Shown here one piece after another: positions 5,136 to 34,958 of a DNA stretch of 64,000 bases (within the stretch, counting starts at the first letter, position 1; each line of letters opens with the position of its first letter). The position numbers and the translations under genes are program-made. This DNA comes from an uncultured Chthonomonas sp. Lineage in GTDB: Bacteria > Armatimonadota > Chthonomonadetes > Chthonomonadales > CAJBBX01. Location of the stretch: positions 1 through 64,000 of the forward strand of contig CAISJD010000028.1 in the NCBI GenBank assembly GCA_903885605.1, read 5' to 3'. Under the pieces are notes generated by a model. The model ran no database searches and was not told where the DNA came from. It saw only the letters and a program-made list of their open reading frames with translations.

Positions 5136-5984
5136 TTACCGGATACCGGCGATTTGGCGAAGCCTTGCCACACGCTGTTCGGTATGCGGGTGCGTGCGGA
5201 AGAGGCCGCCGATGCCCCGCAGGATGTCGCCGCCCAGCGGATTGATGATGTACATGTGGCTGGCCGCGGCGTTCACGTTCATGGGCGCGCGGCGCGCCAT
5301 GCCCTCCAGCCGCTGCAGCGCGGAGGCCAGGGCGAGCGGGTTTCCGGTGATGCGCGCCGCGCCGGCGTCGGCCTCGAACTCCCGCGCCCGGGAGATGGCC
5401 AGCTGGATCAGCACCGCGGCGATGGGCGCGATGATCATGGCCGCCAGTACGCCGAAAATGCCTCCGCCGTCGTCGTCGCGCCGGTCGCCCGGGCCGAAGA
5501 AGAAGATCATCCTCGGCAGCATGGAGATGGCTCCGGCCACCGTGGCGGCGATGCTGCTGATCAGGATGTCGCGGTGCTTGACGTGTGCCATCTCGTGGGC
5601 GAGCACGGCCTCCAGTTCCTCACGGGACATCAGCTGCAGGAGGCCCTCGGTGACCGCAACGGCGGCGTGCTGCGGGTCGCGGCCTGTGGCGAAGGCGTTG
5701 GGTTGCTCCTGCGGGATCATGTAGACGCGAGGCATGGGCACGCCGGCCTGCCGGGCCACGGAGGCGACCATGCGGTGCAGGTCCGGGGCTTCGGCGGGCG
5801 AGACCTCCTGGGCGCCGCTCATCATCAAGGCGAGCTTGTCGCTGAACCAATAGGCGGCCAGGTTGGTGACCGCAGCGAACGTCAGGCCCATCATCATGCC
5901 GCGAGAGCCGGCGATGGCGCCGCCGACCATCATGAATAGACCAACCAGCAGCGCCATCAGCACCGTGGTTCTCATGGCGTTCAT
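5136..5984 (-). CDS. htpX: Membrane zinc metalloprotease HtpX
   Basis: A 282-residue M48B protease that degrades misfolded membrane proteins. The zinc motif HEMAHVKH is at residues 130-137 (His130, Glu131, His134), and the third ligand lies in REFEAD (about 201-206). Two hydrophobic N-terminal segments (about 6-24 and 29-46) and a hydrophobic pair after the active site (about 143-163 and 177-197) match the HtpX topology. I place the start at ATG 5984, which has GGAGGA 8-9 nt upstream; a longer frame reaches 6185 but lacks a site and gives an unrelated arginine- and proline-rich extension. The family is usually stress-induced; no such control site is visible here. Confidence 0.95.
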   Translation of the reverse strand: MNAMRTTVLMALLVGLFMMVGGAIAGSRGMMMGLTFAAVTNLAAYWFSDKLALMMSGAQEVSPAEAPDLHRMVASVARQAGVPMPRVYMIPQEQPNAFATGRDPQHAAVAVTEGLLQLMSREELEAVLAHEMAHVKHRDILISSIAATVAGAISMLPRMIFFFGPGDRRDDDGGGIFGVLAAMIIAPIAAVLIQLAISRAREFEADAGAARITGNPLALASALQRLEGMARRAPMNVNAAASHMYIINPLGGDILRGIGGLFRTHPHTEQRVARLRQIAGIR

Positions 5985-29255: not shown

Positions 29256-29519
29256 TCAGGCGCTCGGCAACCCCATGTCGGCCAGGGTATGTGCGTCCAG
29301 CACCCGGTCAGCGAGAACGCCGAGCAGTTCAGGATCGGTGATGGCCTCCACGCGAGCCACCACGTCGGGACCCATCTGCCCGAACCGGCGCCGCATCAGC
29401 CGCAGCAGGATCGCCTTCTCGCCTTCCGTCCGGCCTTCGGTCTTGCCTTCGATGCGGCCTTCGATGCGGCCGGTTGCCAGCCCCTTCTCCATGCCGCGCT
29501 CTTCGTATGCGAGCATCAT
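29256..29519 (-). CDS. Free-standing duplicate of the Rpn C-terminal domain
   Basis: An intact 87-codon frame almost identical to the last third of the Rpn-like gene immediately upstream (29572-30516). The DNA copy (29256-29557) is offset by 316 bp from its source (29572-29873). It carries the same GAGGTG site (29526-29531), then six nt, then ATG-ATG (29519), and ends with the same GLPSA and stop. Only about six residues differ (for example EKG for KKG, RI for RM). The 316-bp offset is not a multiple of three, so it cannot be fused to the full-length gene. In E. coli, Rpn nucleases produce such a C-terminal fragment from an internal start and it acts as an antitoxin; this copy could be a separate gene for that role. 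A decaying duplicate is the alternative. Confidence 0.65.
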   Translation of the reverse strand: MMLAYEERGMEKGLATGRIEGRIEGKTEGRTEGEKAILLRLMRRRFGQMGPDVVARVEAITDPELLGVLADRVLDAHTLADMGLPSA

Positions 29520-29571
29520 GTGCTTCACCTCACTCTCGGAGGACGGCTCGAGAAGCCAGAGCCGGTCGAGG

Positions 29572-30516
29572 TCAGGCGCTCGGCAACCCCATGTCGGCCA
29601 AGGTATGCGCGTCCAGCACCCGGTCGGCGAGAACGCCGAGCAGTTCAGGATCGGTGATGGCCTCCACGCGAGCCACCACGTCGGGACCTATCTGCCCGAA
29701 CCGGCGCTGCATCTGCCGCAGCAGGATCGCCTTCTCGCCTTCCGTACGGCCTTCGGTCTTGCCTTCCATGCGGCCTTCCATGCGGCCGGTTGCCAGCCCC
29801 TTCTTCATGCCGCGCTCTTCGTATGCGAGCATCATGTGCTTCACCTCACTCTCGGAGGACGGCTCGAGGAGCCGATCCAGTTCCGCAGTTTCGCCGTCGG
29901 TCAGCGGGATGTACTTGTCTACCACGTACAGGAGCAACCAGCGCCGCGCTTCGTCCAGGTCGGCTCGGGCCATGCGCTCGTAGGCGCGGAGCTTGCGGAT
30001 GACACGACTGGTGCTGTTCGACCCCATCAACGCGCTCAACGCCGGCGCCAGAACGCTCGGACTCTCCAGGTACTCCTCGGCCGGCAGGTCCGGGAGGCCT
30101 ATTGCATCATACACGAAGCGGAGGGTCTCGCGGCCCCATAGCCTCTCGATATGCCGCTCCGACGTGAGGCCGCCGGCGCCGGGAGCCAGGTAGACCACCA
30201 CGGGCAGCACCGGGACGCGACGGCGCAGGCGAAGCAGGCTGTAGTACTCCCACATCCGAGCGGGGACGGCGGCCGACCGGTCGGCCTGCACCTCGATGTG
30301 GATCAGCACGATCTCGGCGCCGCCGTCATGTGCCTGGACCTTCACCACCACGTCGGGTTGGCGTCGACTACCTTCCGGCAGATCGGTGAAGACCTCCTGG
30401 TCGAGATGCTCCACGGTGCCGAAGTCGAGCCGGGCTGCGACGTCGGCGAAGAAGAGCTCCATGAACTCACGGAAGAAGGTCCGGAGCACATCCTTCCATA
30501 GCTGATCATGCGACAT
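29572..30516 (-). CDS. Rpn-family PD-(D/E)XK nuclease
   Basis: A 314-residue Rpn-family protein (recombination-promoting nuclease, transposase_31-like). The N-terminal PD-(D/E)XK core shows FFREFMELFFADVAARLDF, then RRQPDVVVKV (Asp55) and IVLIHIEVQ (Glu75, Gln77), a complete D...ExQ active site. The C-terminal third is linked by an EGR/EGK-rich segment and ends in DPELLGVLADRVLDAHTLADMG. An in-frame internal start (ATG-ATG at 29835) has GAGGTG 6 nt upstream and would yield an 87-residue C-terminal protein, as described for RpnS from E. coli rpn genes. In that system RpnL is a toxic nuclease used in phage defence. The 3' end is tandemly duplicated downstream. Confidence 0.85.
   Translation of the reverse strand: MSHDQLWKDVLRTFFREFMELFFADVAARLDFGTVEHLDQEVFTDLPEGSRRQPDVVVKVQAHDGGAEIVLIHIEVQADRSAAVPARMWEYYSLLRLRRRVPVLPVVVYLAPGAGGLTSERHIERLWGRETLRFVYDAIGLPDLPAEEYLESPSVLAPALSALMGSNSTSRVIRKLRAYERMARADLDEARRWLLLYVVDKYIPLTDGETAELDRLLEPSSESEVKHMMLAYEERGMKKGLATGRMEGRMEGKTEGRTEGEKAILLRQMQRRFGQIGPDVVARVEAITDPELLGVLADRVLDAHTLADMGLPSA
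29835..29847 (-). promoter_or_regulatory. Internal Shine-Dalgarno and start of an RpnS-like C-terminal product
   Basis: On the minus strand GAGGTG (29842-29847) is followed by six nt and then ATG-ATG (29835) in the frame of the Rpn-like gene, codons 228-229. The same site and spacing are kept in the downstream duplicate (29526-29531). This is an unusually good internal ribosome-binding site and predicts a separate 87-residue C-terminal protein. Confidence 0.6.
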
Positions 30517-32434: not shown

Positions 32435-32878
32435 TCACATGACCCCGGGCGGCGGCGAAGCAAGGTCGACCTGCGGTAGCGCCGTCGAACGGATGCAGCG
32501 CATATGGCGGTCGCGGTGTACGAGGCGGAGGCCGTGAAGGCTGGCGCAGGCGGCGATCAGCGCGTCCGCCAGCGGAATGCGTGCGGTCGACAAGCCTGAC
32601 AGGCGCAGCGCCTCCTCTGCGGTCTCTTCGGTGATCGCCAGAACGTTAGACATCAGCGGCCGCAGCCGGCGCCACGCCTGCAAGGCTTCCGTGGCCGGTC
32701 GTTCCGTGGCTGCGGCGACAGACCGGCAGAACTCGGCCACTGTGGGAGCCGACACCATGACCAGAGCATCGCCCACCAGGATGTCACGAACAACCGAGCC
32801 CTCCGGTTCGCCCCTGAAGAACGCCAGGACGGCTGACGTATCAAGCAGATAACCGCAGTCCGTGGGACGCTCAGTCAC
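32435..32878 (-). CDS. vapC: VapC-like PIN-domain toxin
   Basis: A 147-residue PIN-domain ribonuclease toxin. The four acidic residues expected in the active site are all present: Asp13 (LLDTSA), Glu49 (VAEFC), Asp105 (PLADA) and Asp123 (HRDRH). Length is normal for VapC. The start is GTG 32878, which overlaps the antitoxin stop by eight bases (GTGACTGA), giving tight coupling; a longer frame to 32980 lies entirely inside the antitoxin gene. VapC toxins typically cut tRNA or rRNA; the target is unknown here. It looks complete and functional. Confidence 0.9.
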   Translation of the reverse strand: MTERPTDCGYLLDTSAVLAFFRGEPEGSVVRDILVGDALVMVSAPTVAEFCRSVAAATERPATEALQAWRRLRPLMSNVLAITEETAEEALRLSGLSTARIPLADALIAACASLHGLRLVHRDRHMRCIRSTALPQVDLASPPPGVM

Positions 32879-33140
32879 CAGCGTCCTCCGCCTCGCGAGC
32901 ATCATCGAGTTCGCTGACCAGGTCTCGTCCCGGCGCCACGTCTCGACCGATCCCGAAGAGCCTCTCCGCCAGGGCAGCACGGTCCGGGATAACCTGAACG
33001 CGCAGATCGTCCGATCCGGCCACCGACGACCAGTCCAGCTTGTATCCCGGACGTATTCCGTGCTCCCTCGCGATCGCGGCGGGGATGGAGACCATGTTCT
33101 TCGTGGTGACGGTGGTGATCATGGATTCATGGTACCGCAT
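32871..33140 (-). CDS. vapB: AbrB/MazE-type antitoxin of the VapC pair
   Basis: An 89-residue protein with a SpoVT/AbrB-type swapped-hairpin DNA-binding domain at its N-terminus: ITTVTTKNMVSIPAAIAREHGIRPGYKL has the usual Val-Ser/Thr-Ile-Pro and G-x-R-x-G pattern. The C-terminal region is acidic and would bind the toxin. Two ATGs are possible (33140 and 33122); the second gives the more typical MITTV start. It would bind its own promoter and repress the operon, as known for the family; no operator was identified. Confidence 0.88.
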   Translation of the reverse strand: MRYHESMITTVTTKNMVSIPAAIAREHGIRPGYKLDWSSVAGSDDLRVQVIPDRAALAERLFGIGRDVAPGRDLVSELDDAREAEDAGD

Positions 33141-34651: not shown

Positions 34652-34958
34652 GGCGCGATCTCCTGACCGGCGACAATGTGCCAGTCAGTGTACGCCATGC
34701 CCGGCCGGTCGCCAATGGTGCGAGTTCAGAAGCTACGTGGCCGGGTTGCGCGCTCAACGCCGGCGCCAGAACGCTCGGACGCTCGAGGTACTCCTCGGCC
34801 GGCAGGTCAGCGAGGCCTACTGCATCATACACGAACCGGAGGGTCTCGCGTCCCCATAGCCCCTCAGTGTGCCGCTCCGCAATGAGGCCGCCGGCGCCGG
34901 GAGCGAGGTTGGCGTACATTCCATATCGAATGCCGACACTGCGGCATAGGCCATCGAC
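34652..34958. other. 307-bp intergenic region with an Rpn remnant
   Basis: The gap between the GH-A gene and the LamG-containing gene contains a 161-bp piece of an Rpn-type gene (34749-34909) and otherwise nothing I can name. Confidence 0.7.
34749..34909 (-). pseudogene. Internal fragment of an Rpn-family gene
   Basis: About 161 bp closely match 30031-30191 inside the full-length Rpn-like gene. The conserved segment reads APGAGGL, then LWGRETLRFVYDA and PAEEYLE, corresponding to residues 109-163 of the intact protein. Start, active site and C-terminal domain are missing, so this is a relic. It shows that another Rpn gene once lay here or that a piece was copied 4.7 kb away. Confidence 0.75.

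Follow-up and report, generated by a model that had tools for sequence, protein, structure and literature searches.

The stretch of DNA analysed here (the window; 64,000 nucleotides from an uncultured Chthonomonas sp.) contains on its minus strand an Rpn-family gene that starts with ATG and encodes a 314-amino acid protein (29572–30516), with a predicted PD-(D/E)XK-like N-terminal domain (D55, E75-x-Q77) followed by a C-terminal DUF4351 tail. The last 300 nt of this gene occur twice as a direct repeat (29256–29555 and 29572–29871, with a start spacing of 316) whose copies are 96% identical, a length and identity well past chance. The upstream copy (copy 1) forms the last third of the 314-amino acid reading frame, and the downstream copy (copy 2; 29256–29555, minus strand) is free-standing, beginning after the copy 1 stop and a 16-nt spacer (29556–29571, minus strand). 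Within the full gene, an in-frame ATG at 29835 opens an internal reading frame for a putative RpnS-like product of 87 amino acids (29572–29835, minus strand), and it is preceded by GAGGTG plus a six-nt spacer (29836–29847, minus strand). The arrangement of GAGGTG, six nt and ATGATG is kept in both repeat copies, which also have GAGTGAGGTGAAGCACATGATG in common. The free-standing DUF4351 frame (29256–29519, minus strand) is open to 29256 and encodes 87 amino acids from the ATG at 29519, or 90 from a GTG at 29528; the ATG at 29519 lies in another frame, 52 nt beyond the copy 1 stop. Both 87-residue products end in GLPSA, align without gaps and contain the same number of four-residue repeats, and they differ at six residues (K/E, M/I, M/I, Q/L, Q/R and I/M), with 10 nucleotide differences in the 264-nt reading frame and 11 in the 300-nt repeat. 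The sequence facts given in an earlier note on this locus (a tandem repeat of ~300 bp, an offset of 316, the GAGGTG-ATGATG motif, 87 residues, the GLPSA terminus and six changes) were all correct on re-check. A scan for sigma-70-like sites found no consensus promoter match before the free copy, and the promoters of this phylum may differ from such sites.

Both the tail of the full-length protein and the free copy match DUF4351 (PF14261) above its cut-off. The scores of the 314-amino acid protein fall below the curated thresholds of the two Rpn models (21.1 bits against a cut-off of 52.1 for TIGR01784, and 12.6 against 21 for PF04754), yet all 14 aligned full-length homologues, which were drawn from the source genome and its family, match TIGR01784 at E ≤ 1e-3 (best 6.5e-14). 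Therefore, as judged from these profiles, the protein is best described as a diverged Rpn relative with a DUF4351 tail and not as a curated Rpn member. Residues D55 and E75 are invariant across the 14 homologues. The G-x-x-x repeats of the tail vary in number among them. The nearest named relatives are Chthonomonadales/Armatimonadetes metagenome-assembled genomes.

In the predicted structure of the full protein (mean pLDDT 82), the N-terminal domain is mixed alpha/beta and is followed by a helical region, in which the G-x-x-x repeats are placed on a 50-residue helix (residues 224–273). The best PDB matches of the N-terminal domain were McrBC and EndoMS, nucleases of the PD-(D/E)XK superfamily, with weak scores (E = 0.01–0.06). 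The model of the tail (pLDDT 77) consists of one long helix plus short helices, and a fold search with it matched nothing; neither profile nor fold search related the tail to the RpnA-S structure (7TH0), a comparison in which fold search is weak for so small a helical model. Searches of PDB sequences, one using the full protein and one the tail profile, gave nothing credible, the best tail matches being of low complexity, and the PADLOC models likewise gave no credible match.

Zhong et al. (2023; PMC10327210) showed that an internal start in Rpn genes yields an antitoxin, RpnS, and stated that RpnS may also be a separate gene, annotated as DUF4351 in some species. Free-standing examples include ypaA (a separate rpnE-S), which lies behind rpnE and whose protein was detected, and an additional rpnC-S located behind rpnC (PMC10327210). 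The rpnE-ypaA repeat was re-found in E. coli K-12 MG1655 (L068:5620–5786 and 5803–5981), with AAAAGGAGAGATTAATG in both of its copies; coverage counts across E. coli are not enough to show the tandem genome by genome, because rpnE by itself makes up over 80% of the first query. As in the window, the E. coli rpnE-ypaA and rpnC-rpnCS loci consist of an Rpn gene followed directly by a free copy of its C-terminal part that includes the internal Shine-Dalgarno (SD)-ATG unit. Therefore, the proposal in the earlier note that this is a new, duplicated toxin-antitoxin layout does not hold, and the window locus is a further example of a known layout, not a new system, whether or not it works. The two cases also differ, in that E. 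coli RpnE matches PF04754 strongly and neither RpnE nor YpaA matches DUF4351, that ypaA exceeds rpnE by one four-residue repeat whereas the window copies are equal in repeat number, and that translation, reported for ypaA, is a prediction for the window copy. More broadly, the window protein resembles the intragenic RpnL/RpnS systems of the Rpn family (COG5464/TIGR01784) in its predicted PD-(D/E)XK-like N-terminal domain, G-x-x-x repeat helix and candidate internal start, but it is diverged, scoring 21 bits against a TIGR01784 cut-off of 52, and the internal start is not universal in its lineage.

In the alignment of the 14 homologues, 11 have the internal ATG at the corresponding position, and in 9 of those 11 no other start-like codon has a better SD before it. 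In the window gene, too, it is the top codon of this kind, but it is no stronger than in synonymous shuffles of the gene. The three remaining full-length homologues (L050, L051 and L063) carry Trp where the others have the internal Met, so any RpnS-like product that they make must start elsewhere. Selection at the nucleotide level on the internal SD was not found after synonymous shuffling (p 0.08–0.77), and the strength of the SD is as expected from the encoded peptide, with its conserved Glu-Val, and from codon usage. Because SD strength follows from these features, and because three homologues have Trp at the start position, the internal SD is permissive for, and not proof of, an internal translation start. 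In E. coli rpn genes, a transcription start inside the gene gives a short transcript (Zhong et al., 2023; PMC10327210).

We lean towards the view that a recent tandem duplication has yielded an extra cognate antitoxin for the Rpn nuclease, by analogy with the E. coli systems. The duplication would have placed directly behind the gene a copy of its C-terminal antitoxin-like third that includes the internal ribosome-binding and start site. If translated, the 87-amino acid product would be an extra RpnS. Like RpnS, it would pair its long helix of four-residue repeats with the matching helix in the full-length protein and so keep the nuclease inactive. In the case of RpnC, an added repeat breaks inhibition unless both partners carry it (PMC10327210); since the repeat number is equal in both window copies, the free product is expected to be cognate to its parent nuclease. 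The translation of the window copy, its binding to and inhibition of the nuclease, and an antiphage role are all extrapolated from E. coli. The RpnS-type reading of the earlier note is reasonable, being in line with the DUF4351 tail, the G-x-x-x repeats of four residues, the internal SD-ATG and the position in tandem. That the frame, start, SD and repeat number are intact, together with the parallel cases, speaks for a functional window copy. The points against this explanation are the SD strength being as expected, the three Trp homologues, the duplicate not being seen in the two other genomes of the genus or the rest of the family, the selection result for the window pair, the Rpn scores below cut-off and the tail model that matched nothing.

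The source genome, a Chthonomonadales-type Armatimonadota, contains about 20 Rpn-family stretches (23 matches), some of which are truncated where a contig ends. The other two genomes of the genus and nine further ones in the family have Rpn genes or none, and no tandem tail was found among the loci examined in them. An order-wide survey of 31 genomes, everything that the class offers (a class-level search added none), revealed one further tandem, in another family (G016:C154; L107:765–2156). The search of relatives proposed in the earlier note found no duplicate in the genus and family loci examined and an independent one elsewhere in the order. As in the window, a full-length Rpn gene in G016:C154 is accompanied by a tandem DUF4351 tail copy, here 89–91% identical at an offset of 348–360. 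The shared part differs by 10 synonymous and two nonsynonymous changes (dN/dS about 0.06, p = 3e-5), and so purifying selection appears to act on at least this free copy. In addition to its low dN/dS, G016:C154 is unlike the window locus in belonging to a different Rpn subfamily, in having eight repeat units where the window has six, and in lacking an SD before the equivalent ATG. Most of the other short DUF4351 frames examined in related genomes proved to be contig ends or frameshifted genes and not tandem copies.

The main rival to an extra antitoxin is a recent, non-functional tandem duplication, produced by slippage or unequal recombination and not yet decayed, in which case only the parent gene matters, with or without an internal RpnS; we regard this as a substantial possibility, if a less probable one. 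The earlier note had taken the open frame and the six or so residue changes as evidence against decay, and had proposed a dN/dS comparison of the two copies. The window pair differs by six nonsynonymous and five synonymous changes, giving a dN/dS of 0.39 that is not different from neutral (p = 0.11), too few changes being available for the test to decide; in simulations, 78–86% of neutral 264-nt copies (about 80%) were still open after 7–11 changes. The argument against decay is therefore not supported, and evidence for constraint on the free copy in the window is weak. Comparison with outgroups assigned about three nonsynonymous and two synonymous changes to the free copy and left several others undecided. 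A neutral origin is also in keeping with the duplicate not being seen in the sister genomes, and with the many frameshifted or truncated rpn genes in related genomes and the rpn fragment in the window itself (34731–34919). Against it are the frame, start, SD and repeat number, all of which are intact, the recurrence of the layout under clear constraint in another family of the order, and the reported translation of E. coli ypaA (PMC10327210).

It is improbable that copy 2 is instead the remnant of a second full-length tandem rpn gene that lost its N-terminal part by deletion, with or without an antitoxin role. Tandem rpn arrays are known (PMC10327210), copy 2 shares L-M-R at codons 53–55 with other paralogues, and the 16-nt spacer with its neighbouring bases (GACCTCGACCGGCTC) is similar to the bases that precede the first copy (GAACTGGATCGGCTC), with 12 of 15 positions matching plus a 6-nt insertion. 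However, this similarity is short, and copy 2 shares 96% identity with copy 1 but only about 63–70% with any other paralogue compared, so the two copies are each other's closest relatives.

An assembly artefact is very unlikely, since the copies differ at 11 positions and have different flanks inside a 71-kb contig, even though the genome is a draft and several of its rpn paralogues (L004, L006, L012, L015, L016, L017 and L021) run exactly to the end of a contig. The assembly appears to break at near-identical rpn copies, so that the paralogues and any tandems are undercounted.

If the free copy is an extra antitoxin, nature would have provided, in this locus, a simple case for testing how an antitoxin internal to a toxin turns into a gene of its own. 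The layout, known mainly from E. coli, is now extended to the Armatimonadota, in a DUF4351 subfamily, and the window locus and G016:C154 together suggest a repeated origin of stand-alone antitoxin copies. A broader conjecture, to which we give little credence, is that free DUF4351 antitoxin copies repeatedly and independently arise behind Rpn genes of this order and are kept, and that, in a genome with about 20 Rpn-family stretches, the free copy may neutralise paralogous Rpn proteins besides its parent; the residue differences at issue for the latter are those at codons 23, 31, 35, 53 and 55.

The rpn fragment elsewhere in the window (34731–34919) derives from a second rpn gene, is 75% identical to residues 106–168 of the first, lacks both ends and sits between a GH5-like gene and a large open reading frame. 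The window also contains, about 2 kb from the rpn gene, a VapBC-like toxin-antitoxin pair (32435–33140) in which a MazE/AbrB-type reading frame (32871–33140) overlaps one with a PIN domain (32435–32980).
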